Below, piece by piece: positions 4,178-58,939 of a stretch of DNA of 64,000 nt (positions within the stretch are counted from its first letter, which is position 1; each line of letters begins with the position of its first letter). Below the pieces are notes generated by a model, which worked only from the letters and a program-made list of their open reading frames with translations, ran no database searches and was not told the origin of the DNA. Made by a program: the position numbers and the translations under genes. This DNA comes from Methanomassiliicoccaceae archaeon COG_1 (lineage in GTDB: Archaea; Thermoplasmatota; Thermoplasmata; Methanomassiliicoccales; Methanomethylophilaceae). The stretch covers positions 238,105 through 302,104 of the forward strand of contig JAQQTI010000002.1 of assembly GCA_028561875.1 (NCBI GenBank), in the 5' to 3' direction.

Positions 4178-4477
4178 TCGCCCCCTCGTCTTTCCGGTGG
4201 ATTCTCCGTCCTCTATCTCCCGGAGCAATCCGCAAATCCTCTCCCCCTCAGGGGTGAGGCTGTATGCGATAGAGGGTTGCGCTCTCTTGACGGACTTGGC
4301 CCTCACATACCCCGCATCGACAAGATCCGCAAGCCTGGCGCGCCTGGAGCCGCTGGCGGGATTCCTCTTGTCCGCAAGCTCAGCCTGAATCCTGCCAGGA
4401 TGCTCTGAAATCTCGAGAAGCACGTCGATGGCGTGCTTCTTGCCGAGGACATCCCGTGATCTGATCACGAGTCTCAT
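4178..4477 (-). CDS. Winged-helix transcriptional regulator (probable element repressor)
   Basis: A 99-residue winged-helix DNA-binding protein: a recognition-helix region in RRARLADLVDAGYVRAK followed by the wing SIAYSLTPEGERI, then a charged tail. Start ATG 4477 is preferred to the upstream ATG at 4540 because the promoter and operators lie at 4511-4559. Its domain ends neatly at CGA 4178-4180. Position next to two palindromes on a divergent promoter suggests an autoregulating lysogeny-type repressor. Without CGA as stop it would run to 3770. Confidence 0.6.
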
Positions 4478-4510
4478 TATCCGAAATACGAATTTGATGA
4501 GTTGTAACGA

Positions 4511-4559
4511 ATAATGATAATCGACATCGTTAAATATCACGAATAACGATAATCGTTAT
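4511..4559. promoter_or_regulatory. Tandem palindromic operators and promoter of the repressor
   Basis: ATAACGATAATCGTTAT (4543-4559) is a perfect 17-base palindrome. A second copy, ATAATGATAATCGACAT (4511-4527), matches 14 of 17 and lies 32 bases (three helical turns) away. Between them, reading leftward, is ATATTTAA (4538-4531), a TATA-like box for the repressor gene, so bound repressor would cover both the box and the start site. The CGATAA core is shared with 1641-1753. Confidence 0.6.
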
Positions 4560-4583
4560 GGTGCGAGCACCGAGCGAGAACGG

Positions 4584-4591
4584 ACTAAATA
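4584..4591 (+). promoter_or_regulatory. TATA-like box for the rightward small-gene operon
   Basis: CTAAATAC lies about 120 bases before the first small gene and 25 bases after the operators, suitable for the rightward transcript that ends with the integrase gene. Weak sequence evidence only. The 4592-4706 leader holds no gene I can support. Confidence 0.3.
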
Positions 4592-4706
4592 CACACGGGG
4601 GCTCGGGCTCAAAGCGACACATTCTCGCACTTTTCGTCGCGTCTCTGCCCCCTCTCTCTTTCTCTCTCGGCCGCAGAGGTTGAGAAATGAAAAAAGCCAA
4701 AGCAAG

Positions 4707-10120: not shown

Positions 10121-11512
10121 ATGCGCTCCCTCGTTTCCGATTCCCTCAAGGAGAGGCTCGAGGCCGCCCAGATGAAGCTCGCCTCCCGCGGCGTCCCGGT
10201 ACTGATCGTGTTCGAAGGCAACAGCGGGAGGGCGATCACCCGCGTCGTCAACGAGGTCAGCCGCTGCCTCGAGCCCATGGGCATCGCCTACCACCACTTC
10301 GACCCCGCGGAGATGCGCGGGACGAAAGGGATCGCCGCCATGCTCGCGGCCACTCCGGGCAAAGGGGACATCGCCCTGTACGACCGCTCCTGGTACTCCC
10401 GCATGATCTCCGAGTACAACCTCGACGAGGGGGACGGTGAGCGGTGGACCTAGCAGGCGGTGAGCTTCGAGAACTACCTGCAGGACAATGGCACCTTCCT
10501 GGTGAAGATCTGCCTCGAGGCCGCCCCGGGGGCGCTCGAACGTCTCGCCGACGAATACCGCCCCACCACCTCCCTGAACACCACGTACCTCTCGGTGGAC
10601 CACGTGGACCGCGTGAAGTACGCCGCCGTCATGGGGTGGCTGATGAGGAAGACGGAGTGCGCCTGCCCCTGGGACAGGGTGAGGATCGCCGGGCTGAAGC
10701 CCACCGTGGAGGAGACCGTGGGGGTTATCGCCAGGAGGCTCGAGGGTTGCGTCGAGAACGGCATCCCCCGGCCCGGGTGCGAGAGGGTCCGCGCGGAATA
10801 CCCCAACCCCCGCGAGGGGCTGGACCCGCACGAGAAGTCCAAGGGGCTCATCGACCGGGCGGGGAAGCTCGGCGAGGAGCTCGGGAGGCTGCAGATCCTG
10901 CTCGCCCTGAGCGGGAGGTCCCTCGTCTGCTGCTTCGAAGGATGGGACGCCGCCGGCAAGGGCGGGTGCATTAGGCACCTGTGCCACGCCCTCAACCCTC
11001 GGGGGTACAGAGTCGCGCAGGTGAAGCGGCCGACACCGGAGGCGTACGACCATACCTACCTGTGGAGGTTCGCGGGCATGCTCCCCGGCCCGGGGCGCAT
11101 CGCCGTATTCGACCGCTCCTGGTACGGCCGGATGATGGTGGAGCCCATCGAAGGGTTCTGCAGCGAGGAGGAGTACCAGCGCTCAGCGGCGGAGATAAAC
11201 GCCTTCGAGTCCATCCTCTCGGAGTCCGGATGCGTCGTCCTCAAGTTCTGGCTGGAGATCGACAAGGACACCCAGAAGGAGAGGTTCGAGGACCGCCAGA
11301 ACGACCCCCTGAAAAGCTGGAAGCTCACCGAGGAGGATTGGCGGAACCGCGGGAAGTGGGACGAGTACTCCGTGTACGTGGACAGGATGATCTCCGCCAC
11401 CAACACCCCCTGGGCGCCATGGGCCGTGATTCCCTCCGGCAGCAAAAAGCATGCGCAGGCCAAGGTTATGGAGGCCGTAGTCGAGGCCCTGAGGAAGGAG
11501 CTGGGGAATCGA
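10121..11512 (+). CDS. Two-domain PPK2 protein (polyphosphate:AMP phosphotransferase type) with internal TAG
   Basis: A tandem PPK2-fold protein that would transfer phosphate from polyphosphate to AMP. Domain 1 has a degraded P-loop ([10 protein letters not shown], residues 31-40) but keeps DRSWYSRM. Domain 2 has the intact Walker [12 protein letters not shown] (residues 272-282) and DRSWYGRM. Codon 111 is TAG (10451-10453) and the frame continues through the conserved helix with FENYL...G; the matching site in domain 2 is Ala, so an extra residue is tolerable. Pyrrolysine is the likely reading. The family ends near [12 protein letters not shown], exactly where CGA (11510-11512) occurs; the next canonical stop in frame is at 13343. 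Confidence 0.8.
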
Positions 11513-15279: not shown

Positions 15280-15747
15280 TCGCTGTTTCATAAGATCGAC
15301 CATGGCTAGCTGCTCGAGCACGGCCTCCTCCGGAAGGATCCCGCAGAACATCTCGGCCCCGAGGGCCTCCGCCTTCGCGGGCGACGCTTCGCAGAGGGCG
15401 TCGTCCCTCTCCGCCCCCAGTTCCCCGAGGCGCAGATCGCCCTCGACGCCGATGACGACGGCTACCACTGCGTGCGAGCCCTCCGGCGGCCTCATCTTCC
15501 GCAGCGCCCGGCCGATCTGCCTTTCGCACGCGGCGTAGAGGATGACCTCAGTGAGCAACGTCTTCGAGCGGTTGGTCCCCTCTGCGAACGCCCTTTCGGC
15601 GTGCATCACGGCGGAGCGGACGTGGTCTTTCCCGCATACCTTGGCCGGGTCAAGGAGCGCCACGCCTCCCCCCGCGTCGGAGAAGTGCCTAATAGCTTCG
15701 TCGAAGGTGAAATCCCCCCTCAGCCCGACCACCTGCACGCCCGTCAT
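15280..15747 (-). CDS. cgi121: KEOPS complex subunit Cgi121
   Basis: A 155-residue protein matching Cgi121, which binds the 3' CCA end of tRNA for the t6A-making KEOPS complex. The family helix is visible as AVMHAERAFAEGTNRSKTLL, then LLTEVILYAACERQIGRALRKM. The fold ends near LAMVDLMKQ, where CGA (15280-15282) stands; the next canonical stop would be at 15178, inside the neighbouring gene. Start ATG 15747. Another KEOPS subunit, Pcc1, is at 36914. Confidence 0.85.
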
Positions 15748-15831: not shown

Positions 15832-16764
15832 ATGAGCGACGAATGGGTGAGGGTGGCCGCCCCCGCGACGACATCCAATATCGGGGCGGGCTTCGACGTG
15901 TTCGGGCTCGCCATCCGCGAGCCGTACGACATCGTAGAGGGCAGGAAGATCGAGTCCGGCCTGGTCATCGACAGCATCGAAGGTCCGGGCGCCGACTCCA
16001 TCGCGAATGACCCTGCCAGGAACTCCGTCACCATCGCCGCCGCCGAGGTTCTGAAACGCTGCGGTGCGGACTTCGGCCTCGAAATCAGGATCAAAAAGGG
16101 CATCCGCCCGTGCAGCGGCATCGGCTCCTCCGGGGCCTCCGCCGCCGGCGGCGCCTACCTCGCCAACCTCGTGTGCGGAGAGAGGCTCTCCCTCAGCGAG
16201 GTCATCCTCTGCGCCGCCAGGGCGGAGGGCTTCACCTCCGGGAGCATCCACGCCGACAACGTTGCGCCCTGCATCCTCGGAGGATTCACCATCATACGCT
16301 CGTACGAACCCTTCGAGGTACTGAGGATAGAGCCTCCCGCGGACCTCGGCCTGGTGATGGCCCTCCCCGACGTGATGGTCGCCACCGCCGAGGCCCGGAA
16401 GGTGCTACCCCAGGAGGTCCCCGTCAAGGACCTGGTGTATCATGTCGGGCACGCCTCGTCCCTCGTCTATGCGATGATGGCCGGCGACCTCCCCCTCATC
16501 GGCAGGGCGGTCGGGGACGTCGTCTTCGAACCCGCGCGTAAGGGCCTCGTGCCCCACCTCGCGGAGGCGGAGAGGGCGGCTATGAACCATGGCGCGATAG
16601 TCTCCTTCCTCGGAGGCTCCGGACCCTGCGTGGTATCGTTCTACGACAAGAGTACCCACCAGGGCGAGGTGATAGCCGAGAGCGTGAAAAGAGTCTTCAC
16701 GGAGAACAGGATCGGCTGCGACACCTGGGTCACCGGGTGCGGGGCCGGCTGCAGGAGGTTATGA
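15832..16764 (+). CDS. thrB: Homoserine kinase
   Basis: A 310-residue GHMP-family kinase that phosphorylates homoserine in threonine synthesis. The N-terminal VRVAAPATTSNIGAGFDVFG, the phosphate-binding GIRPCSGIGSSGASAAGG and the C-terminal GGSGPCVVSF motif are all present. Start ATG 15832 gives the family N terminus; ATG 15811 would add seven residues. Stop TGA overlaps the start region of threonine synthase, the next enzyme. Confidence 0.93.
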   Translation: MSDEWVRVAAPATTSNIGAGFDVFGLAIREPYDIVEGRKIESGLVIDSIEGPGADSIANDPARNSVTIAAAEVLKRCGADFGLEIRIKKGIRPCSGIGSSGASAAGGAYLANLVCGERLSLSEVILCAARAEGFTSGSIHADNVAPCILGGFTIIRSYEPFEVLRIEPPADLGLVMALPDVMVATAEARKVLPQEVPVKDLVYHVGHASSLVYAMMAGDLPLIGRAVGDVVFEPARKGLVPHLAEAERAAMNHGAIVSFLGGSGPCVVSFYDKSTHQGEVIAESVKRVFTENRIGCDTWVTGCGAGCRRL

Positions 16765-16766
16765 AC

Positions 16767-17984
16767 ATGGCTAACCACAAGGTAGTTTGCTGGGAGTGCG
16801 GGGCCGAGGTCAGCGACCCGTACGTGTATCTCTGTCCGCGGTGCGGGGGCCTACTGACCGTGAAGATGGACCTCTGCGAGGTCGCCGACATGAGCCCCGA
16901 GGACCTCCGTAGCGCGCCGCTCGGCGTGTGGAGGTACGCCCCCTTCATGCCGGTCGGCCCCGCGCACAGGGTCTCCATACAGGAGGGTGGGACGCCCCTC
17001 TACAGAACCGACGCCGTCTCCCAGGAGGTCGGCGTGAAGGAATCCTACGTAAAGTTCGAGGGGCTCAACCCCACGGGCTCCTTCAAGGACCGCGGCATGA
17101 CCGTCGGCGTCTCCTACGCCAGGGAGCTGGGGGCGAAGGTCGTGGGCTGCGCCTCGACCGGCAACACCTCCGCCTCCCTAGCCGCGTACGCCTCTAAGGC
17201 GGGCATCAAGTGCGCCGTGTTCCTCCCCTCCGGCAAGGTCGCCATGGGGAAACTCGCGCAGGCGCTGTTCTTCGGGGCGAAGGTCCTGAGCGTCGACGGC
17301 AACTTCGACGACGCCCTCGCCCTGGCGAGGAGGATGGCCGAGGAGAGGAAGATCTACCTCCTCAACTCCATCAACCCCTACCGCCCGGAGGGACAGAAGT
17401 CCGTGCTGTTCGAAATCATGGACCAGCTCATGTACGACGTGCCCGACAGGATCATCCTCCCCGTGGGGAACGCCGCCAACATCTGGGCGGTGTACAAGGC
17501 CTGCATGGAGCTCAAGGAGGTAGGGTGGATCGACAAGGTCCCCATGCTCACCGGCATCCAGGCCGCAGGGGCGGCGCCAGTCGCGGGCGCCTTCGCCGCG
17601 GGATCGAAGGACTTCCTCCCCGAACCCAACCCCGAGACCGTCGCCACCGCGATCAGGATAGGCAACCCCGTGTCCGGGAAGAAGGCCCTGCACGCAATCT
17701 ACGACACCAAGGGCTATGCGGAGACCGTCACCGATGCGGAGATCATCGCCGCCCAATCCCTGCTCGGCAGGAAGGAGGGCGTGTGCGTCGAGCCCGCGTC
17801 CGCCGCCTCCGTCGCCGGGCTGAAGAAGCTCAGGGGATCGGGCGTCATCGCAAAGGACGAGCGCGTGGTTTGCATCTGCACCGGCAACGGCCTCAAGGAC
17901 CCCGACACGATAATCGCTAACGCCCCCAGGCCGATCCCCTGCGGGAACTCGGTGGCGGACGTCGAGAGGATTCTCTCGGAACGA
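16767..17984 (+). CDS. thrC: Threonine synthase
   Basis: A PLP enzyme converting O-phosphohomoserine to threonine, encoded directly after its supplier thrB. An N-terminal zinc-ribbon-like CWECG/CPRCG precedes the fold-type II domain; the PLP lysine is in NPTGSFKDRGM and the phosphate loop in STGNTSASLAA. ATG 16767 sits eight bases after GCAGGAGGT. The protein ends at NSVADVERILSE followed by CGA (17982-17984); a TGA follows 12 codons later at 18021. Confidence 0.92.
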
Positions 17985-18178: not shown

Positions 18179-20419
18179 TCGGCGGAACCCGTCTATCTTC
18201 TTCTGCGCGTCATCGGCGAGCCTCGCATCCATCTCCGCCGCCATCCTCTCGAACTGGTACTCCATCTCGTCGTCGGGCTCCTCCAGCCGCTGCGGGGCAC
18301 GCCCCGCCTGCTCCTTGATGCGGGCGGCCAGCGACGGCCCGATCCTGCCGAGCTTCGCCAGATCGCCCTCGTCCGCCGCAGCGACGTCCGCCCTCGTGCG
18401 GTACCCCGCGGCGAACAGCGCACGCGCCCTGCTCCGCCCCACTCCGCGGAAGGACACGAGGGGGACGAGTTCCTCCTTCACGCCGTACCGCACGCGGGTG
18501 AGCAGCGGCTTGATCCTCTTCGAGGCGCCGGGGTTGAAGATCAGCGCAATCTCGTTCATGGAGTACAGGATCCAATCGGCGGAGTCCACCCGCGAGCGTA
18601 TGTCCCCCGGCCCAATCTTCATGGCCTCGGTGATGAAGTCCTCCGACCTCTCGTCGATCCAATCCCGCAGCATCAACGCCGTCTTGAGGTCGCTCATGTG
18701 CACGTCGAAGGCGGTTTCGTCGTCCGCCCCTTCGCTCTCGTCGTAGATGTCCACGAGGTAGTGCCCGTCGTACTCCTCGTCTATCGCACTGAGCACCGGC
18801 TGGTCGTCCTTCTTGGGATACAGCCCCATGACGTCGGGCGTGGACGCCACCGCATGCATGACCTGCAGGTCGTCAGAATCGCCGTCCATCTTCAGCACCG
18901 CCTTCTTCAGGACGACGGCCGACCACGGATCGATGTACAGGTCGGACACCCTTTTCCCGAACGGGAGTATGCGCACCGATTCCCCCGCGCTCTCCACCAT
19001 CCCGTGCTCCGCGAGGAACCCCACCACCTTCGAGACGAGCCGGTCTATGCCGTAGAGCTGCGAGGTCGCCCCGAAGAACGTGGACCCCAGGAACTCGATT
19101 ATGCCCTCCTCGGAGTCGGCGTCGCCGGTGGCCACCAATCCCAGTATGTTCGAGCGCAGCGTCCTCTCGTTCCCGAGTTTCGAGGTGAGCCTCTCGGTGT
19201 CCTGCTCGATGTAGTCCTCCATGAGGTGGTCGGCGTCCCTCTCGGACCTGGCGACGAGCACCGCCTCTCCCCAGGGGTCGTACCCCGGCCTCCCGGCCCG
19301 GCCGCACATCTGCTTGACCTCCATCACCGAGATGGGGACGTTGCCGGCGTTCGACTCGAAGCGGCTGGTATCGCGGACCACCACCCTGCGAGCGGGGAGG
19401 TTGATGCCCGCGGCGAGGGTGGGGGTGGCGACCACGACCTTGATCCTCCGCGCGCGGAATCCATCCTCGACCGACCTCCGCTGCTTGTAATCCAGGCCGG
19501 CGTGGTGGAAGGCGGCGCCGGCCTCCACGCAGTCGGCGAGCTTCTTCCCCACGGAGGTGGACTCCGCCCCGCCCTCGAGCATCTCCCTCTCCGCCGAAGG
19601 GAGGGGGGAGGACTGCCCCCTCATCGCTTTCGCCAGACGGGAGGCGACGGCCTCGGTGGAGCGGCGGGAATTCACGAAGACGAGGCATTGCCCCCCGCCC
19701 TCCACCGTCTGCTTCACAATCCCCAGCATCTCGTCTCTACCGACGGGGACCTCGATCCTCGAACGGTCGGCGAAGGTGATCTCGCCGCCGAAGTACACCC
19801 CCTCCCTCAGCTCGGTCGGGCGCCAGCCCATGCGGACGAGGTCGGCGTCCAGCCACATTGCCAGTTCCTCTGCGTTGGAGATGGTGGCGGAGAGGGCGAT
19901 GACCTGCATGCCCGGGTTGCGGCGCATGAGCTTGCTCAGGGCGATTTCGAGCGTCGGGCCCCTCCCCGGGTCGGCGATCATGTGAACCTCGTCGGCGATG
20001 ACCAACCCCAGCCCTTCCGTCCAAATGTTCCCGTGGCGGATCATGGAGTCCGCCTTCTCGGATGTGGCTATGACGATGTCCGCGCCGGAGACGTCGTCGT
20101 CGCGGTCGGGATCGCCGGTGGCCGAGACCACCCTTACCCCGAGATGCGAGAACCTCGCGAGGTCGTCCCTCTTCTCCGATGCGAGGGCCTTGAGGGGCAC
20201 GATGTACAGGACCTTGCTCCCCGTCCTCAGGACAGCGTCGAGGGCGGGGATGAACCCGATGAGGGACTTACCGCTGGCAGTGGGGACGGCGGCGACGAGG
20301 TTCCTCCCTGCCAACGCCTTCGGGATGGCCTCGGCCTGCGGGGGGTACATCTCGTCGAACCCCTGGGCCGCGAGAGCGTCCTTGAGTGGATCAGGTATGC
20401 CCAGGTCCCCGAACTTCAT
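18179..20419 (-). CDS. hel308: Hel308-type DNA helicase
   Basis: A 746-residue Ski2-like superfamily 2 helicase that unwinds stalled replication forks. Motif I VPTASGKS, motif II DEVH, motif III SATISN, motif VI QMCGRAGRPGY and a C-terminal helix-hairpin-helix (FRGVGRSRARALFAAGY, LGRIGPSLAARI) are in order. The start ATG 20419 is about 25 bases from a TTAAATAG box, so leaderless. The acidic tail ends at DDAQKKIDGFR and CGA (18179-18181). The next canonical stop is 155 codons on, inside antisense thrC. Confidence 0.92.
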
Positions 20420-20612
20420 GGCTGGGCCCATGCGAGCGGGCTATTTAATGGATGGGTTCAGCATGTGCCAGACCATGATTTCCATCCGTCTTCCTGCCGC
20501 CTGCGAGTCAGGGGCGCTCCCCCGCCTCCCGCGAAACAGCGGCCACGGGCATGCCCCGGCCCGGCGGCCCCGCCCGCGCCATTATTATAGAAAGAGCGAA
20601 TTGAGAAGGGCG

Positions 20613-23966: not shown

Positions 23967-24491
23967 ATGAACGCTCCCAAGGACTACGGCCTGGTCATCG
24001 GGAGGTTCCAGCCTCTCCACCTCGGACACATGGAGGTCGTCCGCAAGTGCGCCTCCGAGTCCGAGCACCTGGTGATAGGCATCGGCAGCGCGCAGTACTC
24101 CCACCTCCCCGACAACCCGTTCACAGCGGGGGAGAGGTACAGCATGATCGAGGGCGCGCTGCGCGACGAGGGCATCGAGAACTACAGCATCGTGCCCATA
24201 GAGGACCTCAACCGCTATTCGGTATGGGTCGCGCACGTCGTGTCGATGTGCCCCCCGTTCTCCTGCGTGTACACCAACAACCCCACCACCCACCGCCTCT
24301 TCTCCGAGGCGGGATTCGAGGTGCGGGCCTCGCCCATGTTCAACCGCGAGATGTACTCCGGCACGGAGATCCGCCGCCGCATGGTCGAAGGCGGGGACTG
24401 GCGCTCGCTGGTCCCTAAGGCCGCGGCGGACGTCATCGACAGAATCGACGGCATCGGCAGGATCGTTGGGTTCTCCGGCGGGGACATCCGA
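23967..24491 (+). CDS. nadM: Nicotinamide-nucleotide adenylyltransferase (archaeal)
   Basis: A 174-residue enzyme joining NMN (or NaMN) and ATP into NAD. The nucleotidyltransferase signature GRFQPLHLGH is near the N terminus and SGTEIRRRM, the second signature, near residue 133. The frame ends at CGA (24489-24491) directly followed by TGA, and the CGA overlaps the ATG of pncC (CGATG). The neighbouring amidase makes NaMN, so the pair forms an NAD recycling unit. Confidence 0.93.
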
Positions 24492-25003: not shown

Positions 25004-25906
25004 ATGCGGAAGCTTATGACCGGGAAGGTCAAAGAGGTATACGCCGTCGACGACGACACCCTCGAGTTCGCTTACACGGACCACATCTCCGTCTTCGACA
25101 AGATAATACCCTCCATGGTCCCCCACAAGGGCGAGACCCTCTGCAGGACTGCGAAGTACTGGTTCAACATCCTCTCCGAGAACGGGATCAGCAACCACTA
25201 CCTGTCCGAGCCCGCCAGGGACAGGATGGATGTCAAGCGCGTGCGGGTCATCAGGGACTACTCCGAAATCGACCGCGAGACCGCAGACTACCTCATCCCC
25301 CTCGAAATCATATGCAGACACTACGTTGCCGGCTCCCTCATGGACCGCGTCAGGACCGGTGAGATCACCGCCGAGCAGCTCGGCTTCCCCGAAGGGCACG
25401 AGGTGAGGTACGGCGAGAAGCTCCCGCGCCCCTTCGTAGAGGCCACCACCAAGCTTGAGGCCACGGACAGGAACCTCACCGACGCCGAGGCGAAGGAGAT
25501 GGCCGGTTTGACCGACGCCGAGTACGACGAGATCGTCGACACCACCCTGAGGATCGATGAGATCATCGCGGAGGAGGCCGCCAAGAGGGGCCTCATCCAC
25601 TGCGACGGCAAGAAGGAGTACGGCTACGACAAGCAGAGGAAGCTCATGGTCGTCGACACCTTCGGCACCCTCGACGAGGACCGCTGGTGGGACGCCGAGG
25701 AGTACGCCAGGGGCAACATCGTCGAGCTCTCCAAGGAATTCGTCAGGCAGTACTACCGCGAGACCGGCTACCACAAGGCGCTTTGCGACGCCCGCGAGAA
25801 GGGGCTCCCCGAGCCCGACATACCCGCCCTGCCGCAGGACGTCATCGACCGCACCAGCAAGCTCTACGTCGACATGTACGAACGCATCACCGGCGAGAGG
25901 TTCCGA
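25004..25906 (+). CDS. purC: Phosphoribosylaminoimidazole-succinocarboxamide synthase
   Basis: A 300-residue SAICAR synthase, the ATP-dependent aspartate-adding step of purine synthesis. GKVKEVYAVDDDTLEF opens the ATP site, and EIICRHYVAGSL and SKEFVRQYYR match the family. The conserved protein ends at YERITGERF, directly followed by CGA (25904-25906). The next canonical stop is 25 codons later and the intervening residues are low complexity, unlike a PurC tail. Confidence 0.93.
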
Positions 25907-28027: not shown

Positions 28028-28456
28028 TCGAATCACCGTGATGGCCGTGCGGACCATCCCGACCGGGCATTCGAGCCTCCCGCCGACCGCCTCGATGGAC
28101 ACCTTCGTGCCTGAATCCAGGCCGGGAGGGTTGCATATGCCGTAGCTGGGGCAACCGACCTCTCCGCATCCCGCCGGTGAGAACGTGATCATGGAGCCCG
28201 CCATCGCCAGCTTGGAATCAACCGCAGCGGCGCGCTCCCTCTTCTCGACCTCGACGACGACCGCCTCCCCTCCCTCGATGGCGTCGCATGGGTGAGACGT
28301 CCTCCTAGCCTTCTTCACGTAGTACTCCGAGCCGACGTCGAGGCTCAGGCAGATGCTCCCGTAAGGACAGGACCCGCACTCCATGACCGGACCGAGGAAT
28401 ACGAAGGAATCCCCCTCGCGGGCGCGGCTAGCGCCCACCATCGTCAACGTGACCAT
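28028..28456 (-). CDS. UPF0179 family protein
   Basis: A 142-residue archaeal protein of unknown function. The start MVTLTMVGASRAREGDSF and the cysteine pattern CGSCPYGSIC, then CGEVGCPSYGIC, are those of UPF0179, whose Cys residues probably bind a metal. Start ATG 28456 overlaps the end of egsA (CGATG). The family length is reached at RTAITVI, where CGA (28028-28030) occurs; the next canonical stop is 21 codons further. Confidence 0.85.
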
Positions 28457-30697: not shown

Positions 30698-30699
30698 CC

Positions 30700-39091: not shown

Positions 39092-39489
39092 CGCATCACT
39101 TTGTTCTGTTCGCAGTCAGCATACGCCTTGGAGATGGCGTTCTTCATCAGGAGGTCGGGGATGTCCTCTATGTAATCCCTGTTCCAGTCGTCCGGGGCCC
39201 TCTCGAAGCCGATGATCATGCTGCTGCTCGGGGAGGGAGGCACCTCGGGCTTCTTTATTTCGAGGCCGTCAAGTATGTCCTCGACATCGCGGCCGTTGAC
39301 GGCGACCGCCGACTTCCGCCCTTCGACGATCTTCGCCTCGAAGCGCACGGAGATGCCGGCGAACTTCATCTCGGAAACCAGCCCGTTTACGTAGTCACAC
39401 ATCTCCTGCACGGAGGTACGCCTGAGGTCGGACCCCGGCGGTATCCGCATTTCGCCGGGGTGAGTATAGATTATATCAATCATCGCCAT
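39091..39489 (-). CDS. Conserved-looking hypothetical protein
   Basis: A 132-residue soluble protein, beta strands first (MIDIIYTHPGEM, GISVRFEAKIVEG), helices last (DLLMKNAISKAYADCEQN). No family recognised. It ends at CGA (39091-39093) overlapping the tgtA ATG; a TAA follows three codons later. Operon position suggests a link to tRNA modification, inference only. Confidence 0.6.
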
Positions 39490-39514: not shown

Positions 39515-40858
39515 TTATAAAAGGTGCGGTCGGAGACGGTCCAGCAGGGCCTCTGCCCCGGAGTCGCCCTGATCGGCGGCCATGCGCAAATACCTCTCTG
39601 CCTCGTCCCGGGAGACGCGTTTCGAGCCGGTGGTGAACATCTCGCCTATCGCGCGCTGCGCCCCGGCATGGCCGAGATCGGCGGCCAGGCGGTAGAACGA
39701 AAGGGCTCTCCCCTCCGACTTCTCCGCCCCGTTCCCCCCGCGGTGCAGCTCGGCGAGGGCGAAGTCCGCGTCAGCGACGGTGTCCCGGTCGGACGCCCTC
39801 CCGGCGGCGGTGGAGTAGTAACTGTACGCCTTGCGGTGCGACTGGTCGGTGCCGCTGCCATACTCGCTAAGGTATCCCAGGCAGTAGGCGCATGGACCGC
39901 TGCCGAGCTCCATTCCCTTCCTGTACCAGCCGGCGGCCGTACGCTTGGAGGTCTCCACCCCATACCCGTTCTCGTACATCTGCCCGAGGACGTAAGCGGC
40001 CTTGTGGCGACCGCTGCCGCAGGCATCCTCCAGCCAGAGCATGGCGGTGGCCGGGGAGTAACCGGTGCAGACGCCGTCGAGATGCTCCAGTCCCACGGCC
40101 AGGCGCTCCTCGGGGGAGGAGGGGCGCGGTAGGGCGGCGGAATAGTCCGGAATGGCCGCCCATTCGGCATCGGCGCATGGACCGCCCCACCTCTCCACCT
40201 CGAGGCAGAGGTGCTCGGAGATCGGGACGGAGCGCTCGAGACCCAGGCCGTCATGGTAGAGCTCGGCGAGGAGCCTCTTGGCGGACACGTTCCCCTGCCT
40301 CGCGGCGCGTTTGAAGAGGACGGCGGCGGTGCCGCACGAGCGCTCGAGACCCAGCCCACGCATGTACATCCGGCCGAGGTTGCACTGCGCCGGGGCGAAC
40401 CCGGCGAGGTTCCCCCTCTGGAACCACGTCACGGCGGCGTGGTCGTTGTGCTCCGGGGAGTGCCTGTCCATATATATCAGGCCCAGGTTCCCGAAGGCCC
40501 TGGCACACCCTGCGTCGGCGGCCCTCTCGTAATACTCCACGGCGAGCGGGCGGGACCTCTTAACGCCCAGCCCTGACTCGAGGAGGAAGGCCACGGCGGC
40601 CATGGCGTCGGCGTCCCCCTCGCCAGCGGCGCGGGAGTACCACTTGTACGCGTTCCTGTAGGACTGGCTTATGCCGTGCCCGCTCTCGTACATCGTACCG
40701 AGGAGGTACTGCGCCCGGGGGAGGCCCCTCTCCGCCGCCTTCCGGTACAGCGAGAATGCCTGCTTGAAATCCTGGGGGACGGCGCTTCCGATGCGTAACT
40801 TGTCGCCGTAGCGGACCTGCTCCTCCGGGCGCTTGGGCTGCCTCTCGCGCTTGAGCAT
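39515..40858 (-). CDS. Sel1-like repeat protein
   Basis: A 447-residue soluble helical-repeat protein with about ten Sel1 repeats (pattern A..LG.MY..G.G...S...A..WY..AA..G), for example AQYLLGTMYESGHGISQSYR. Repeat proteins of this kind act as protein-interaction scaffolds; the partner is unknown. No signal peptide, so probably cytoplasmic. Ends at TAA. Confidence 0.85.
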   Translation of the reverse strand: MLKRERQPKRPEEQVRYGDKLRIGSAVPQDFKQAFSLYRKAAERGLPRAQYLLGTMYESGHGISQSYRNAYKWYSRAAGEGDADAMAAVAFLLESGLGVKRSRPLAVEYYERAADAGCARAFGNLGLIYMDRHSPEHNDHAAVTWFQRGNLAGFAPAQCNLGRMYMRGLGLERSCGTAAVLFKRAARQGNVSAKRLLAELYHDGLGLERSVPISEHLCLEVERWGGPCADAEWAAIPDYSAALPRPSSPEERLAVGLEHLDGVCTGYSPATAMLWLEDACGSGRHKAAYVLGQMYENGYGVETSKRTAAGWYRKGMELGSGPCAYCLGYLSEYGSGTDQSHRKAYSYYSTAAGRASDRDTVADADFALAELHRGGNGAEKSEGRALSFYRLAADLGHAGAQRAIGEMFTTGSKRVSRDEAERYLRMAADQGDSGAEALLDRLRPHLL

Positions 40859-40940
40859 AGGGGGAGCAGGCCGACGCCCGTAATAAAGGATGGGTCACAG
40901 GCGCGCGAGGTATTTTAACGGGCACCCGGATGGCCCGCGC

Positions 40941-41312
40941 ATGTTCGGATTCGGCCGTGACGACGAGTACAAGGTCGTCGTCCTCGTCAGGCAGGACCTC
41001 AAGATGTCGAAGGGCAAGACCGCCGCGCAGGTATCCCATGCCGCCGTATCGTGCGCCCTCCTCGCCGAGAAGAGGTTCCCGGACGAGTTCAGAAGCTGGT
41101 GGCCGGGGCAGAAGGTGGTCGCCCTCAAGGTGGCCGACGAGCGCGAGCTTTTCGAGCTAAAGGCGATCGCCGACCGGCAGGGTCTCCCCAACTGCGTCGT
41201 CACCGACGCGGGCAGGACCGAGGTCGAGCCGGGGTCGGTTACGTGCTTGGGCATCGGGCCGGGGAAGCAGTCCGTCCTCGACAGGGTCACCGGGGACCTG
41301 CGCATGCTCCGA
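40941..41312 (+). CDS. pth2: Peptidyl-tRNA hydrolase, Pth2 family
   Basis: A 123-residue enzyme that frees tRNA from dropped peptidyl-tRNA. KVVVLVRQDLKMSKGKTAAQVSHAAV and VTDAGRTEVEPGSVTCLGIGP contain the family's catalytic Lys, Gln, Asp and Thr positions. Pth2 proteins end just after VTGDLRML; here the next codon is CGA (41310-41312). The next canonical stop is about 200 codons on, through antisense of the convergent gene. TATA-like TATTTTAA at 40910-40917. Confidence 0.95.
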
Positions 41313-41900
41313 TCGCTCGAGGAGCGAACGGGCTCTGCCGGTGACCGCGGAGGGGTCCTCGGCGAGCATATAGGCGGACATCATGCATATGCCGTCCACC
41401 CCGCAGTCGTGGACGGCCTGCATGTTGGCCGGGGATATGCCGCCTATGGCGTAGACGGGTATGTCGGATTCGATGCAGATCATGCGGAGTTCGCCGAAGC
41501 CCCTCGCCGGGGCACCAGGCTTGCAGGCCGTCTCGAACACGTTGCCGTAGACCACGAAATCCGCGCCGAGCTCGTCCGCCCTCCGCGCCTCGGCGCGCGA
41601 GTGGACGGAGACCCCCAGCCTGCCCACGCCGGGGCGGCCCCTTTCGATGGCGTCGAAGGGGACCCATGCGGTACCGACGCCGAGGTCCGAGGCCACATCG
41701 GCGAAGGTGTTGACGCACAGCTCCACACCGTGCTTCCCGCATATCCCCTTCGCCTCCGATGCCAGGCGGGAGTACTCCTCGGTCGCGAGGTCCTTCTCGC
41801 GGAGCACGAGCATGTCGACCCCCGAGGCGCAGACCCTGTCGATCTGTTCCATGAGCGGGCGGGCACAGTTTCTCCGGTCTGTGACGGCTATGACCTTCAT
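41313..41900 (-). CDS. ThiE/TenI-like protein (last gene of thiamin cluster)
   Basis: A 195-residue TIM-barrel paralogue of thiamin phosphate synthase. [32 protein letters not shown] and YAIGGISPANM follow the ThiE/TenI pattern, but it sits after thiH and beside a second, more canonical ThiE, so a thiazole tautomerase (TenI) role is likely. It starts inside the thiH terminal CGA (CGATG) and ends at CGA 41313-41315, exactly abutting the Pth2 CGA. Confidence 0.8.
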
Positions 41901-43072
41901 CGATCGCTCCTGACGTAGTCGTTGAACACGGGCTGCAGCCCCATCGCCTCGAGGGCGGACCTGACCTCCTCGACCCCCCTCGTATCGGAGAGCTCGAACT
42001 GCCCGTCCCCCTGGTCCTCGACGTCGCTGTGCCCGCCGATTCTCACCGACGAGCCGGCGGAGACCTTCGTGGCGCAGATGTTGACAATGCCGTCCCTGAA
42101 CCGCGGGAGCTCGCGGGTGGAAACCGTCTCCCCCGCAAAGGGCATGAACAGGCGGTAGGCCGTCGCCACCTGCAGCAGGTCGCGCTCGGTGACGGCGGTA
42201 TCGTCCTCCCCGTGGCCGTTGCACGGCCTCAGCCTCGGCAGGGAGTATGAGATCTCCGCCCAAGGATACCTCCTCTGCAGGAGGTACCCGTGCATCCCGC
42301 AGGAGAAGGCGTCCTTCCTCCAGTCCTCGCGTATCCCCAGCAGCGCGCCGAACCCGACGCCCCTCATCCCGCCCATCAGAGCGCGCTCCTGCGCGTTGAA
42401 GCGGTAGGAGAATACCCTCTTCCTGCCGCCGAGGTGTACCCTACCGTACGTGACGGGGTCGTACGTCTCCTGGAAGATGGTGACGTAGTCCGCCCCGCGC
42501 TCGTGCATCATGCGATAATCGTCGGAGTTCATCGGGTAGACCTCGAGACCGATCGACGCGAAGTGCTCCGCCGCCTTGTCGACGAGCATGCCGATGTACT
42601 CGAGGTCGGAATGCCTATCCGATTCGCCGGTGAGGAGGAGGATCTCGGTGAGCCCCGACCCCGCGATGCTCTCCATCTCCACATCCACCTCCTCCGGCGT
42701 GAGCCTCGCGCGGACGATGTCGTTATCGCGGTTGAATCCGCAGTACCGGCAGCGTGACTCGCAGAAGTTGGAGGCGTAAAGCGGGGTGAACATGCACACG
42801 GCATTGCCGAAGTGATCGCGGGTGATGGCCCTGGCTCTCTGGGCGATCTCCTCTGTGAGGCCCTCCGCGGCCGGGGACAGCAGCGCCCCGAAGTCGTACG
42901 GCTCGAGGCGCTCCTTCGAGATCGCCTCGCGCACGTCGCAGGCGGAGTAGGAATCCGGATCGAACGCCGCCTCGGCGGAGAGCACCCCGTCCATGACGGA
43001 CGAGTCTATGCGTTCCATCCGAGGCGCGTAGAATGCCGCGTCGGTGCGTTCCCTGAACCTCGCCTCGGGCAT
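41900..43072 (-). CDS. thiH: Tyrosine lyase, radical SAM (dehydroglycine synthase)
   Basis: A 390-residue radical-SAM enzyme cutting tyrosine to dehydroglycine for the thiazole ring. The cluster motif CESRCRYC binds 4Fe-4[15 protein letters not shown] and [18 protein letters not shown] are family blocks. ATG 43072 overlaps the end of thiG by eight bases; GTG 43081 is an alternative. It ends with CGA (41900-41902) followed by TGA, with ATG of the next gene inside (CGATG). Confidence 0.92.
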
Positions 43073-43841
43073 CCCGCTCACCGAGGAACCCGGTCAGTGG
43101 GGAGGAGGCTTCGCCCCTGCCCTCTAGGACCCTTCCGGGACCGGCGAGGTACGCCGCCCTCCCGGCTTCGATTGCCATCCTGAAGGCGCGCGCCATAGCG
43201 GGGGCGTCCTTCGCCGTCGCGACAGCGGTGTTCGCCATCACCGCGGCGCACCCCATCTCCATGGCCTCGCAGGCATGCGACGGCCTGCCGATGCCCGCGT
43301 CGACGATGACGGGGACGTCCAGCTCCTCCACCATCATCCTGATGAAGTCCCTCGTCAGCAGGCCGCGGTTGCTCCCGATCGGAGAGCCGAGCGGCATGAC
43401 CGCCGCGGCGCCCGCGTCCGCCATCGCCCGCGCGGCGGTGAGGTCGGGCATCATGTAAGGCATCGGTGTGAAGCCGTCGTCTGCCAACATCTCCACCGCC
43501 TTTATCGTACTGGCGTTGTCCGGCAGGAGGTACCGCGTATCGCGGACGATCTCGATTTTGATCATGTCCCCGCATCCTAGCTCCCTTGCGAGCCTTGCTA
43601 TGGTGAGCGCCTCCTCCGCGTTCCTCGCACCGGAGGTGTTGGGCAGAAGCGTGACGCCCTCGGGCATGTAATCGAGGACGTTCTCGTTCCCGTCCTTGTT
43701 CACCCTGCGCACGGCGAGCGTGGCGATCTCCACGCCGCCGTTCTCGATGACCTGCTCGGTCATCTTCAGCGAGAACTTCCCGGAGCCCAGGATGAATCTG
43801 GAACGGAACGCCCTATCGCCGATTTTCAGAAGGTCTTCCAT
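43065..43841 (-). CDS. thiG: Thiazole synthase
   Basis: A 258-residue TIM-barrel enzyme that joins deoxyxylulose phosphate, dehydroglycine and ThiS-carried sulfur. [19 protein letters not shown] (imine Lys region), [13 protein letters not shown] and [13 protein letters not shown] are diagnostic. It ends at [10 protein letters not shown] then CGA (43065-43067); otherwise the frame runs 113 codons into thiH. ATG 43841 overlaps the thiF end. Confidence 0.93.
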
Positions 43842-55852: not shown

Positions 55853-55976
55853 CTCGTACGGCCGGCTTTGCCTGCGCCGGTTTCCGGCGGAGCTTCGGCT
55901 GGGATCGGGCATCGCCGACCAAGTGAGCGGACGAGATGCCGGGGTTGAGGCCCGGGCGGGCCTTTCGGGGTCCGGC

Positions 55977-56930
55977 TCAGAGCCCGCACTTCTTGAGGAG
56001 GATGTTCCACCTGCGGTCGGTCTCCTTCTGGATCTCCTCGACCACGTCGGCCCATCTCTCGTCCTTGAGGTGCTTGAACCTGCCCTGGGACTCAAACCAG
56101 TCGATGACGGGCCTCTTCTCGACCTTGCCGTCCGCGATGCGGCGGCTCTCGGGCGATAGGGCGTAGTCCGTGCCGTACTCGACCTCGTAGAGAGGCCAGA
56201 TGCAGGCCGCCACGCCGAGCTTGGATATCTCGATGGTGTCCGAGGAGGCGAACCTCCACCCGCGGGGGCAGGGGGACAAGGCGTTGATGAACGCGGGGCC
56301 CCCGCACTCGAATGCCTTCCGCGCCTTCTCGACCATGTCCCTCCAGGCGTGGGGGGCGGTCTGGGCGGCGAAGGGGATGTGGTGTTCCGCCATTATGGCG
56401 GTCATGTCCTTTGGGTATTCGGCCTTGCCGTAGGAATTCGAGCCGTTCCACGAGGTGGTGGTGGACGCGCCCCTCTCGGTGGCGGAGGACCTCTGTATGC
56501 CGGTGTTCATGTACGCCTCGTTGTTGAAGCACACGAAAAGCATGTTGTGCCCCCTCTCCATGGCGCCGGAGAGTGCCTGGAAGCCGATGTCGTACGTGGC
56601 GCCGTCGCCGGCGAAGTTGACGAAGCGTATGTCCTTGTCCGTCTTCCCCTGCCTCTTCAGGGAGCGGTAGGCGGTCTCGAGCCCAGCGCATCCCGCGGCG
56701 CCGTTGCCGAAGGCGGTGTGCACCATCGGGACGTTCCACGAGGAGTAGGGGAAGATGGTCGTCGAGACCTCGAAGCATCCGGTGGAGACGGAGACGCAGA
56801 CGTCCTTCTCGGTCCCCATGAGGATCTGCCTCGCGATGATCGACTCGGCGCAGCCGGCGCAGAGCCTGTGACCGCTGGCGAGCCTGACGGGTATGTCGGT
56901 GCTGAGCTCCTTCAGGGTGAGTCCGGTCAT
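55977..56930 (-). CDS. porB: Pyruvate:ferredoxin oxidoreductase, beta subunit
   Basis: A 317-residue TPP-binding subunit. SGHRLCAGCAESI and the later Cys hold the third 4Fe-4S cluster; FAGDGATYDIGFQALSGAMERGHN is the TPP-Mg motif (GDG...N). Last gene of porGDAB, overlapping porA (ATGA). Converts pyruvate to acetyl-CoA, or the reverse in autotrophic growth. Confidence 0.95.
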   Translation of the reverse strand: MTGLTLKELSTDIPVRLASGHRLCAGCAESIIARQILMGTEKDVCVSVSTGCFEVSTTIFPYSSWNVPMVHTAFGNGAAGCAGLETAYRSLKRQGKTDKDIRFVNFAGDGATYDIGFQALSGAMERGHNMLFVCFNNEAYMNTGIQRSSATERGASTTTSWNGSNSYGKAEYPKDMTAIMAEHHIPFAAQTAPHAWRDMVEKARKAFECGGPAFINALSPCPRGWRFASSDTIEISKLGVAACIWPLYEVEYGTDYALSPESRRIADGKVEKRPVIDWFESQGRFKHLKDERWADVVEEIQKETDRRWNILLKKCGL

Positions 56931-58099
56931 TCGTTCACCCCCACGAAGTTAACGGTCTTGGCGGCGCCTGCCTCCACCATCTTGTAGACGGACATGAAGT
57001 CGGACACCATTGTGTCGGCACCTCCCAGCCCGTAGATGAAATCGTACATGCTGGGCATCTCGGCGCCGCAGGCGGCGGCGCAGACCTCTGGGAACATGGG
57101 GCCGTAGGCACCGGTGCTCAGGTGCCTGTCCATGACGATGACCGCCTTCTTGCCCTTGCAGATCTCGGCGATCCCCCGGGCGGGCCACGGGCGGTAGACG
57201 CGCGGCATGGCGACGCCGACCTTCATGCCCTCTTCGCGGAGGTTGTCGACGGCCTGCTTCATGGTGCCGAAGGAGGAGCCGAGGACGATCGCGACGTACT
57301 CGGCGTCATCGCACATGTACTCCTCCACGAGGTGGTACTCCCTGCCGGAAATCCCCCTGAACTCGGCGAAGACATCCTCGGCGACCCCGAGGGCGTTCTC
57401 CATAGCCTTGACCATCTGGTACTTGTGCGGGAAGTAGAACATCGGCCCGTCCATCAGGTTGTGGGTGACGGGGTGGTCCGTGTCGAGCAGCGGGTGGAGG
57501 GGCGTGAAGGGCCCGACGAACTCCCTGACGGCGCTGGACTCGAGGGGGGTCATCCTCTCTATGGCGTGGGTCAGGATGAACCCGTCGAGGTTGACGAGGA
57601 CGGGCAGCTGCACGCCCGGGTCCTCGGCGATTCTGGGGGCGACGATGCTCATGTCGTAGGCCTCCTGCACGTTCTCGCTGAACAGCGAGAGCCAGCCGGT
57701 GTCCCTGGCGGACATGACGTCACCGTGGTCGTTGTTGATGTTGATGGGGCCGGAGACCGTCCTGTTGGCAACCGCCATCATGAGGGGAGTCCTCATGGCG
57801 GCGGTGATGGGGAGCATCTCCCACATGTAAGCCAGGCCCTGGGAGGCGGTGGCGGTGAACGTCCTCGCGCCGGCGGCGCAGGAGGTGGTGCACAGGGTGA
57901 GTGCGGAGTGCTCGGACTCCACGTCGATGAACTCGGTGGTGACCTCGGCATTGGCGACGTACCTGGCGAAGTCCTCGACGATGATGGTCTGCGGAGTGAT
58001 GGGGTACGCGGCGACGACGTCCGGGTTGATCTGCTTCCAGGCGAGGGCTACCGCGCCGTCCCCGTTCACCGCGATGTCGTTTCCGACCTTGCTCGTCAT
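56927..58099 (-). CDS. porA: Pyruvate:ferredoxin oxidoreductase, alpha subunit
   Basis: A 390-residue subunit beginning VGNDIAVNGDGAVALAWKQ, with AAYPITPQTIIVEDFARYV and the substrate-loop EFIDVESEHSALTL. ATG 58099 overlaps the porD stop. In the standard code an upstream frame joins it to porG because porG lacks a canonical stop; CGA at 58382 and porD lying between show they are separate genes. Confidence 0.95.
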   Translation of the reverse strand: MTSKVGNDIAVNGDGAVALAWKQINPDVVAAYPITPQTIIVEDFARYVANAEVTTEFIDVESEHSALTLCTTSCAAGARTFTATASQGLAYMWEMLPITAAMRTPLMMAVANRTVSGPININNDHGDVMSARDTGWLSLFSENVQEAYDMSIVAPRIAEDPGVQLPVLVNLDGFILTHAIERMTPLESSAVREFVGPFTPLHPLLDTDHPVTHNLMDGPMFYFPHKYQMVKAMENALGVAEDVFAEFRGISGREYHLVEEYMCDDAEYVAIVLGSSFGTMKQAVDNLREEGMKVGVAMPRVYRPWPARGIAEICKGKKAVIVMDRHLSTGAYGPMFPEVCAAACGAEMPSMYDFIYGLGGADTMVSDFMSVYKMVEAGAAKTVNFVGVNE

Positions 58100-58380
58100 T
58101 CTATGTCCTCCTTCATGGTGATGGCCTTCTTGGGGCAGACCTTGGCGCAAATCCCGCACCCCTTGCAGTGGGTGGTCTTGAAGCCGACGAGCTGCGCGCT
58201 CTCGACTATGATGCAGTTGTCCGGACAGTAGACCCAGCAGGAGAGGCAGTCGATGCAGATCGACTTGTCGACGACCGGCACCATGGACCTCCAGTCCCCG
58301 GTGTGGAATCTCTCGGAGTTGCCGGGCTCGACGACCCTGCTCCCTATGACCATGCCCTTGTAATCGGCTAGATTGACCAT
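58096..58380 (-). CDS. porD: Pyruvate:ferredoxin oxidoreductase, delta (ferredoxin) subunit
   Basis: A 94-residue two-4Fe-4S ferredoxin subunit: CIDCLSCWVYCPDNC and CKGCGICAKVCPKKA. It accepts electrons from the TPP centre and passes them to free ferredoxin. Its ATG 58380 directly follows the CGA end of porG. Confidence 0.94.
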   Translation of the reverse strand: MVNLADYKGMVIGSRVVEPGNSERFHTGDWRSMVPVVDKSICIDCLSCWVYCPDNCIIVESAQLVGFKTTHCKGCGICAKVCPKKAITMKEDIE

Positions 58381-58381
58381 C

Positions 58382-58939
58382 TCGCTGCACCTCCTCGTAC
58401 GCCCTCTTGAGGGCAGCCAGGTTCTTCACGATCATCTTGTCGGACAGTTTCCCGGTGAACTTGTCTGTGATGTGGTCCTCCATCTCGGAGAAGGATATGA
58501 TGGGGCGGATCTTGACGAGGGCGCCGAGCATGGCGGTGTTCACCATGTTCTTGCCGATCTCCTCGATGGCGATCTTGGAGGCCTTGACGGCGTGGCACTC
58601 GACCGTGGTGCCGATGGCCTTCTGCAGCTCGGCGGGGGTGCCCTCGTAGTTCGCAAGGACGAAGCCCCCCTTCTTTAGGCCCCTCACGACATCCACCTTC
58701 CCGATGAGGGTCGGGTCGATGACTATGACGATGTCGGGCTCGTAAACCTGGGTGTGGACCCTGACCGGGCCGTCGGAGATGCGGGCGAACGCCCGTATGG
58801 GGGCCCCCATCCTCTCCGGCCCGAACTCCGGGAACGCTTTCACGTACTTGCCTGAGTAAATGGCCGACTCGGCGAGGATCTCGTTGGCGGTGACGACGCC
58901 CTGCCCCCCCCTGCCGTGCCAACAGATTTCAGTGTCCAT
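58382..58939 (-). CDS. porG: Pyruvate:ferredoxin oxidoreductase, gamma subunit
   Basis: A 185-residue subunit opening with ICWHGRGGQGVVTANEILAE and FPEFGPERMGAPIRAFARIS, both diagnostic. The fold ends at LKRAYEEVQ, followed by CGA (58382-58384) and, one base later, the porD ATG. Read as Arg, the frame continues 484 codons out of register through porD and into porA. Confidence 0.95.

Follow-up and report, generated by a model that had tools for sequence, protein, structure and literature searches.

Sense codons that have become stop codons are described from organelles. In the mitochondria of green algae, UCA/UCG and UUR have passed from sense to stop, as stated in the sections of PMC6821328 used here, and the same has happened to UUA and UCA in peDinoflagellate plastids; the 2025 paper on these plastids (PMC12574857), in the part drawn on, calls this lineage the first sense-to-stop case outside mitochondria. 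For a cell's own genome, searches of the CC-licensed papers of PMC turned up no such change. A release factor gene that carries a termination codon is also on record, since codon 26 of the E. coli RF2 gene is itself a termination codon (PMC5009743, in the passages available). Here we describe two genera of archaea, kin of the methane-making gut microbes, in which genes frequently end at the arginine codon CGA. The starting point was a stretch of 64,000 nucleotides from Methanomassiliicoccaceae archaeon COG_1 (contig JAQQTI010000002.1, positions 238,105 to 302,104), hereafter the window. Its genome (G000, 86% complete) belongs to genus g1, and SIG8, also a partial genome (87%), belongs to the second genus, g9.

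Results

A sequence-only reading of the window had proposed that about twenty of its genes end at CGA. At all 20 listed places CGA indeed stands in frame and a canonical stop is absent. Seventeen of them were called as genes ending there and the Cgi121-like gene was supported by Pfam, leaving two unsupported: the supposed regulator at 4178, which was uncalled and matched MarR_EPS only weakly (E 4.5e-4, below cut-off), and a 51-codon ORF at 51264, which was too short for the caller and had no family match. The list had missed a Sel1-repeat gene (39530..40858, minus strand; CGA 39530-39532), which was called and has a Pfam match.

In four genes of the window a family model ends two residues or less from CGA. 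The models NF003314 and TIGR00283, both above cut-off, stop exactly at the last residue, 140 of 140, of Pth2 (40890..41312, plus strand; CGA 41310-41312). PorG, the gamma subunit of a 2-oxoacid oxidoreductase (58382..58939, minus strand; CGA 58382-58384), is matched by TIGR02175 above cut-off up to residue 185 of 185, and EgsA, glycerol-1-phosphate dehydrogenase (28456..29529, minus strand; CGA 28456-28458, in a CGATG overlap with the next gene), by NF002022 above cut-off up to residue 356 of 357. PurC (25004..25906, plus strand; CGA 25904-25906) matches TIGR00081 above cut-off, and NF010564, below its own cut-off, runs to residue 300 of 300. The same codon of PurC is CGA in the window and in SIG8, and TGA in all ten other g1 genomes with a match (13 searched).

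Several further models reach close to CGA. The Pfam model Desulfoferrodox extends to residue 167 of 168 in the Dfx-domain gene (31405..31911, plus strand; CGA 31909-31911), and TIGR02351, above cut-off and complete to position 363 of 364, reaches residue 389 of 393 in ThiH (41900..43081, minus strand; CGA 41900-41902), with the protein up to CGA as the query; this CGA lies in a CGATG overlap and is directly followed by TGA. The Hel308 helicase (18179..20431, minus strand; CGA 18179-18181) is matched below cut-off by PRK02362 (735 of 739 positions) up to residue 746 of 750, and its end codon is TGA in UBA593 and CGA in SIG8. ThiG (43065..43841, minus strand; CGA 43065-43067) carries a complete Pfam ThiG match (247/247) at residues 6-248 of 258. 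LeuA (32414..34027, plus strand; CGA 34025-34027) is matched by NF002085 above cut-off up to residue 526 of 537, and threonine synthase ThrC (16737..17984, plus strand; CGA 17982-17984), a called gene, by TIGR00260 above cut-off up to residue 390 of 415. In the called TgtA (37157..39091, minus strand; CGA 37157-37159; 644 residues), TIGR00432 above cut-off covers residues 2-445 and a TIGR00451 domain covers 538-637. PPK2, a two-domain gene resembling polyphosphate:AMP phosphotransferase (10121..11512, plus strand; CGA 11510-11512), contains an in-frame TAG (10451-10453), probably pyrrolysine, as TAG probably is in this genome generally. When this TAG is read through, TIGR03708 matches residues 20-493 of 493, against 277-493 otherwise, with bits below the cut-off both times; the match, likewise below cut-off, ends at residue 348 of the 350 preceding CGA.

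The remaining CGA-ended genes are identified less closely. The Cgi121-like gene (15280..15747, minus strand; CGA 15280-15282) is absent from the gene calls, and the called start of its neighbour overlaps it; Pfam CGI-121 covers its residues 29-102, CGA being at residue 156, and by eye a similar-looking CGA-ended counterpart lies close to Hel308 in SIG8. A called gene that the sequence-only reading named NadM (23967..24491, plus strand; CGA 24489-24491) overlaps the next ATG as CGATG. The UPF0179 gene (28028..28456, minus strand; CGA 28028-28030) was called and matches Pfam UPF0179, and the TenI-like gene (41313..41900, minus strand; CGA 41313-41315), matching Pfam TMP-TENI, stands back to back with the CGA of Pth2. 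Two called genes gave no match in the NCBIfam search, namely an uncharacterised gene (30068..30703, minus strand; CGA 30068-30070) and a hypothetical gene (39091..39489, minus strand; CGA 39091-39093) in a CGATG overlap with TgtA.

Across 624 kb, or 41% of the source genome, 550 genes were called, of which 313 end at TGA, 174 at CGA, 41 at TAA and 22 at TAG. The caller was self-trained on codon usage and treated CGA as a stop, which makes the number of in-frame CGA zero by construction, and the argument is therefore carried by homology and by what follows the end codon. In the other two frames of the same genes CGA occurs 15,183 times. A coding score above 0.1 past the end codon was seen at 9 of 173 CGA ends and at 17 of 312 TGA ends; inspected by eye, the nine mostly reflect the next gene starting in the same frame, as with LeuA and LeuC, where LeuC starts at 34040 in frame with LeuA and residue 543-546 of the LeuA read-through is where its models start. 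Plain readthrough of CGA as arginine is ruled out by this coding signal and by the family models that end at CGA.

Of the samples taken, those from the window's genome, SIG8, G060 and G069 showed the trait most strongly. In SIG8, 55 of 123 ends are CGA and coding continues past three of the 55; G060 has CGA at 9 of 34 ends and G069 at 10 of 33 (aRF1 fragment left out), and in both of these the aRF1 codon is the sole CGA with coding after it. CGA ends were also found in the separately named genome UBA71. In eight of the nine g1 genomes with the junction, all except G011, the gene 5' of a TruB-like gene ends at CGA one codon before the TruB-like ATG (Cmk and TruB are names that we presume from sequence). 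Counts of sense-like versus stop-like CGA were 11/0 in g5, 7/0 in g7, 17/2 in g8, 10/2 in g11, 18/0 in g14 and 4/48 in g9; genera g2, g3, g4, g10 and g13 stood outside the CGA-end tests. The trait may have arisen once or twice. In the aRF1 tree g1 groups with g6, away from g9. For groups named after the tree had been seen, a clade of g1 and g9 was rejected (p-AU 0.016) and one of g1, g6 and g9 was not (0.133).

The absence of internal CGA, as claimed, applies to the called genes of the window; elsewhere in the genome two genes, aRF1 and an HTH-like regulator, have one each. No others were noticed in 41% of the genome, where a codon-usage search for internal CGA near the N-terminus was insensitive, placing aRF1 16th, and may have overlooked further cases. 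In the regulator CGA stands at a conserved arginine, which is CGC or CGT in nine relatives. In aRF1 of g1 the sole in-frame CGA lies at -33 from NIKS, at a conserved arginine, in 14 of 14 genomes; in g9 it lies at +20, at a different arginine, in all 26 readable genomes, SIG8 excepted. Counted from the presumed start, these are codon 25 in the window's genome and codon 78 in the second genus, and the frame is unchanged past the internal CGA, with no +1 frameshift. The 17 other listed conserved-arginine columns of aRF1 in both genera show no CGA (0/17), 13 of them varying in codon and four being invariant for a codon other than CGA. CGA occupies -33 in 9 of 13 readable g8 genomes and 5 of 6 g14 genomes as well. 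Since CGA is mostly sense-like in these two genera, CGA at -33 in g1 may in part be inherited. In all 14 g1 genomes this codon is followed by GGA or GGC. SIG8 has CGC at +20, no internal CGA, and an aRF1 gene that ends at CGA.

The sequence-only reading had pointed to aRF1 and to a tRNA-Arg with anticodon UCG as places where the change might be visible. The NIKS and YxCxxxF motifs of aRF1 are both intact in the window's genome, so an obvious change in aRF1 does not explain the new reading. No aRF1 substitution separated the CGA-stop genera from the others, with mild differences at 111 and 284 only; SIG8 alone has K66N/N67H beside NIKS. Our first expectation, that tRNA-Arg(UCG) would be missing from the window's genome, is ruled out, for the tRNA was found there, as the lowest-scoring tRNA match among those listed. 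It was found in most genomes with an internal aRF1 CGA, often oddly changed: U73 occurs in 12 of 14 g1 genomes, 3 of 3 g6 genomes and 0 of 23 others aligned, and C directly 5' of the anticodon (C33) in 6 of 12 g9 tRNAs, eight g9 genomes lying outside the tRNA model search. In SIG8 the arginine tRNAs found were TCT, CCT, GCG and CCG; the TCG tRNA was found neither among the 42 typed of 43 matches of one model nor among the best 10 of 24 matches of a model of our own, and the first of these models fails on Pro GGG at least. G074 keeps the aRF1 CGA, and tRNA-Arg(UCG) was not among its seven typed model matches.

Discussion

The fall in coding signal after CGA, the ends of the family models and TGA in orthologues make sense-to-stop use of CGA the best reading, as the sequence-only reading had suggested. 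Translation very likely terminates at CGA, and aRF1 is the likely factor that reads it. As a whole, the genomes argue with good likelihood for CGA as a predicted stop read by aRF1, with a weak tRNA competing at the internal CGA of the aRF1 gene, and that internal CGA is probably autoregulatory. The presence of tRNA-Arg(UCG) in the window's genome means that the meaning of CGA there is probably competitive rather than exclusive and, together with the internal CGA of the regulator, that CGA is probably still read as arginine sometimes. At CGA, aRF1 and the weak tRNA-Arg(UCG) would compete. With ample aRF1, ribosomes would halt at the early CGA of its message; with little aRF1, arginine would be inserted there by the tRNA and full-length aRF1 would be made. 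In ordinary genes the terminal CGA would simply end translation. The change looks complete in SIG8, given the internal CGC, the tRNA-Arg(UCG) not found and the aRF1 gene ending in CGA, and a full and exclusive reassignment is suggested for SIG8 only.

Of the two mechanisms originally put forward, direct termination is much likelier than editing of C to U, by which terminal CGA would become UGA in the message and aRF1 would read an ordinary stop. Relatives do have TGA at the same place, and a CGA stop in a plant mitochondrial genome has been attributed to possible editing in the portion of PMC10983754 drawn on. An editor would, however, need to pick CGA at gene ends alone: editing of the triplet as such would also strike the 3,772 CGA with C at codon position 2 in the 550 genes, and the sequence around CGA ends showed nothing striking apart from a weak preference at +4 (0.22 bit). 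RNA structure 3' of the ends gave no lead either, with a mean energy of -17.9 at CGA and -17.1 at TGA, both taken with no shuffled control. We know of no C-to-U editing of mRNA in archaea, and consider this explanation improbable. Almost as improbable is the view that CGA is unassigned or hungry, that stalled ribosomes are cleared by Pelota and ABCE1, and that aRF1 does not truly recognise the codon. In its favour, many genomes have a tRNA that looks weakened (U73, C33), none was found in SIG8, and CGA users share no aRF1 substitution; yet an invariant in-frame CGA sits in the release factor gene itself, at different residues in the two genera, and this speaks for aRF1 as the acting factor, and rescue at about 32% of genes in G000 or 45% in SIG8 would presumably be costly.

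A narrower doubt accepts termination at CGA elsewhere and takes the CGA of aRF1 to be nothing more than a rare codon that is read slowly, or else an RNA element. The CGA at -33 in 9 of 13 genomes of g8, with its mostly sense-like CGA, and the GGA or GGC that follows it in every g1 genome fit this idea, but in g9 the CGA occupies another residue (25/25 in the conserved-arginine listing) and uses other codons at -33, and SIG8 lacks both the internal CGA and a detectable tRNA; we find it unlikely. That the CGA ends are artefacts of assembly or base calling, T being read as C, or ordinary arginine codons in extended genes, is practically negligible: the assembly of the window's genome is incomplete, but separately named genomes, SIG8 and UBA71, show CGA ends, coding falls after CGA in a homology-free measure and family models stop at CGA.

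If CGA is a stop in a cell, it must be asked by what means a factor of the aRF1/eRF1 type accepts C at the first codon base. It is reasonably probable that a sense-to-stop change in a cell's genome has been caught at several stages, with a captured codon, a self-throttling aRF1, a weak tRNA and, in SIG8, a finished state. The apparent intermediates, i.e., rare CGA, aRF1 with internal CGA, odd tRNAs and then no detectable tRNA, would allow a direct comparison of the ambiguous-intermediate and unassigned-codon models. If true, and with TAG as pyrrolysine, codons would have changed roles in both directions in these genomes, one from stop to sense and one from sense to stop. With standard gene prediction, about one third of genes here and nearly half in SIG8 would be given wrong ends.

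Compared with described systems, the arginine codon reassignments reported with Codetta (PMC8629427, in the sections used) are sense-to-sense, unlike that of CGA. The plant mitochondrial case likewise has CGA in the DNA at a gene end, but it concerns, in the part of PMC10983754 considered, a single gene in a heavily edited organelle, whereas nothing here suggests an editor that follows the reading frame. RF2 offers a parallel to the aRF1 gene: as far as the account consulted goes, an early termination codon of its own limits synthesis when the factor is abundant, as we infer for codon 25 of aRF1 in the window's genome; in the second genus the codon, number 78, lies later than that of RF2. To get past UGA, RF2 synthesis requires a +1 frameshift, whereas the aRF1 frame continues and a tRNA would read CGA through. 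In the sense-to-stop organelles, by the excerpts at hand, a former sense codon stands at the ends of homologous genes and not inside genes, the cognate tRNA may be absent and a release factor is thought to have widened its reading. In these archaea CGA likewise stands at gene ends and was seldom noticed inside genes, the tRNA was not found in SIG8, and aRF1 would have widened its reading. The release factors of the organelles are of bacterial type, and here an aRF1-type factor would act in an archaeal cell with its own genome; unlike in the organelles, CGA departs from UGA at its first position, with C instead of U, and a CGA is kept within the gene for the release factor itself.

CGA and TAG at gene ends in the source genome

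In the source genome of the window (1.51 Mb in 6 contigs, archaeal, 86% complete; the window is G000:C2:238105-302104), CGA, an arginine codon elsewhere, is predicted to act as a stop codon alongside TGA and TAA, and TAG is probably the pyrrolysine codon. The sequence-only reading had listed 20 CGA codons of the window as gene ends. All 20 are in frame as described; 17 were supported as ends by gene calls based on codon usage and that of Cgi121 by Pfam, and those at 4178 and 51264 were left unsupported. A Sel1-repeat gene ending in CGA at 39530 had been overlooked. Among 550 called genes of this genome (624 kb), 313 ended at TGA, 174 at CGA, 41 at TAA and 22 at TAG. The mean coding score over the 30 codons past the end was -0.40 for TGA, -0.35 for CGA, -0.33 for TAA and +0.15 for TAG, and scores above 0.1 were seen past 17/312, 9/173, 4/40 and 14/22 ends, respectively; CGA ends therefore resemble TGA ends, and many TAG codons look like sense codons. 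The gene caller counts CGA as a stop, so the lack of in-frame CGA in called genes holds by construction; both the coding test past the end and homology are independent of this setting. For TAG, a PylS match exceeded the cut-off at G000:C1:503590-504291, and a PPK2-like gene matched a nearly full model only when its TAG (window 10451-10453) was read through.

The window genes were translated through CGA and searched against the NCBIfam models. The best full-length models stop at the CGA in Pth2 (140/140), PurC (300/300), PorG (185/185) and EgsA (residue 356/357), and the remaining models of these families end from a few residues before it to a few after; the other PurC models end at residues 299-303 (one weaker model at 265) and the other PorG models mostly at 182-186, with two weaker PorG models reaching 195 and 214. 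The PurC C-terminus reads YERITGERF-CGA in the window and YERITGEKF-CGA in SIG8, a genome of g9, the second CGA-using genus of the family, and YERITGEKF-TGA in all ten other genomes of the window's own genus, g1, with a match (3/13 had no match). Overlaps of the TGATG type are written CGATG in the window at 24489, 28456, 39091 and 41900, and at 20 of the 174 CGA ends in the 624 kb. The base 3' of the end codon was T or G at 128/174 CGA ends versus 160/313 TGA ends. The nearest relatives of the window's Hel308 among named genomes are Methanomassiliicoccaceae and Methanomethylophilaceae archaea; the match in a horse faeces archaeon spans 956 codons versus about 736 query residues, which suggests an insertion.

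CGA use across the family

The family was sampled as 102 genomes in 14 genera, with 14 genomes in g1 (including the window's and UBA593) and 31 in g9 (including UBA71, SIG8 and SIG9, assigned through their identical aRF1 coordinates). CGA was scored as sense-like or stop-like by the coding signal after it, leaving out 0-6 unclear cases per genus, in the genera having a long stretch (all except g2, g3, g4, g10 and g13). The sense-like/stop-like pairs were 4/48 in g9, 11/0 in g5, 1/2 in g6, 7/0 in g7, 17/2 in g8, 10/2 in g11, 1/1 in g12 and 18/0 in g14. Among the g1 genomes other than the source genome the pair was 6/6, and five of the six sense-like cases are one junction, at which the gene 5' of what we take to be a TruB-like gene ends at CGA one codon ahead of ATG; it is found in the source genome and seven other g1 genomes, a ninth (G011) has TGA in a different frame, and three further stretches compared lack the junction. 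With more sequence, two of three CGA were sense-like in a g6 genome (G021), and four other g1 genomes had 2-4 CGA ends among 37-63 genes. The high users end 174/550 genes (source genome), 55/123 (SIG8), 9/34 (G060) and 10/33 (G069) at CGA, the last two counts excluding an aRF1 fragment that the caller took for a gene. In Th196P4bin4 (g8), a CGA at an apparently conserved Arg of a presumably LonB-like gene (3672-3857) precedes a 13-residue stretch, so CGA is read as sense in that genome.

tRNA-Arg(UCG) and aRF1

Scanning for tRNA-Arg with anticodon UCG found it in all 14 g1 genomes. In g9 it was found in 8/31 genomes by pattern search and in 13 more by a covariance model, a search that left eight of the 31 outside; it was not among the seven typed model hits of G074. 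In SIG8 none was seen among 42 of the 43 RF00005 matches (one, intron-like, was left out), a list that missed a tRNA-Pro, nor among the best 10 of 24 hits of a UCG-trained model, which in most other g9 genomes places a UCG tRNA among its best two or three; the Arg tRNAs present in SIG8 are TCT, CCT, GCG and CCG. U73 occurs in the tRNA-Arg(UCG) of 12/14 g1 and 3/3 g6 genomes and in 0/23 others aligned, and the three other Arg tRNAs found in the source genome have G73. Judged by eye, six of 12 g9 tRNA-Arg(UCG) carry C immediately 5' of the anticodon, and their first anticodon-stem pair is broken. These features would be expected to weaken the tRNA.

The archaeal release factor aRF1 keeps both its NIKS and YxCxxxF-type motifs in the source genome. 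In all 14 g1 genomes its gene body contains exactly one in-frame CGA, the Arg of (Y/F)RG(R/K)GTEL at -33 codons from NIKS (codon 25 in the source genome). In g9 the one CGA instead falls on the Arg of ARLKT, at +20, which is codon 78 in each of four genomes counted, and it does so in all 26 readable genomes besides SIG8 (25 aligned and 1 partial; one gene was cut and three genomes had no match). Across the two genera, 17 other conserved-Arg columns (-57 to +139) hold no CGA; the codon varies in 13 and is invariably CGT or AGG in 4, so invariance alone is not unique to CGA. Of all CGA codons in the G060 and G069 samples, coding continues only past the one in aRF1. In g6 a CGA is found at -47 (3/3 genomes), and -33 is CGA in 9/13 g8 and 5/6 g14 genomes, genera in which CGA is mostly sense-like. 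NIRS replaces NIKS in two g9 genomes (G061 and G067), changing a nearly invariant Lys.

Discussion

In the simplest account, drawn from sequence, aRF1 would act at CGA and compete there with a weak tRNA-Arg(UCG), and would limit its own synthesis through the CGA inside its own coding region. The aRF1 gene itself retains one CGA, at different residues in the two genera, as such self-limitation would predict. SIG8 shows the joint loss expected under this model, with CGC at +20, no tRNA-Arg(UCG) found among the matches typed, and an aRF1 gene that itself terminates in CGA. The acceptance of C as first base is left unexplained by the aRF1 sequence: no substitution separated CGA users from others among 90 aligned aRF1 sequences. 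SIG8 is unique in this alignment in carrying the changes K66N and N67H, which immediately follow NIKS.

C-to-U editing of the CGA ends would call for a frame-aware editor, because 3,772 CGA triplets with C at codon position 2 lie inside the 550 genes of the source genome. The sequence-only claim of no internal CGA does not extend to this whole genome, where aRF1 and an HTH-like regulator (G000:C1:39056-39988) carry one each. In the regulator it falls at a conserved Arg near the N-terminus, a position encoded by CGC or CGT in the nine relatives whose codon was read (the motif did not pick up three further matches); CGA is therefore probably not exclusively a stop in this genome, and the search for N-terminal internal CGA was insensitive. 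The regulator may be another gene, besides aRF1, that is read through, or its CGA may have arisen by mutation not long ago. The aRF1 tree places g1 with g6 and apart from g9; a single g1+g9 clade was rejected (p 0.016) and a g1+g6+g9 clade was not (0.133), and CGA-stop use may have had two origins, or one followed by reversal.

No archaeal or other cellular sense-to-stop case was recognised in the literature searched, as judged from titles and abstracts. A 250,000-genome screen (PMC8629427) did not report a CGA-stop case, and this could be explained by the inability of Codetta to detect sense-to-stop changes, as described in PMC9825746. RF2 is controlled at codon 26, according to PMC5009743. 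Plastid UUA/UCA is, by the account of PMC12574857, the first sense-to-stop case beyond mitochondria.
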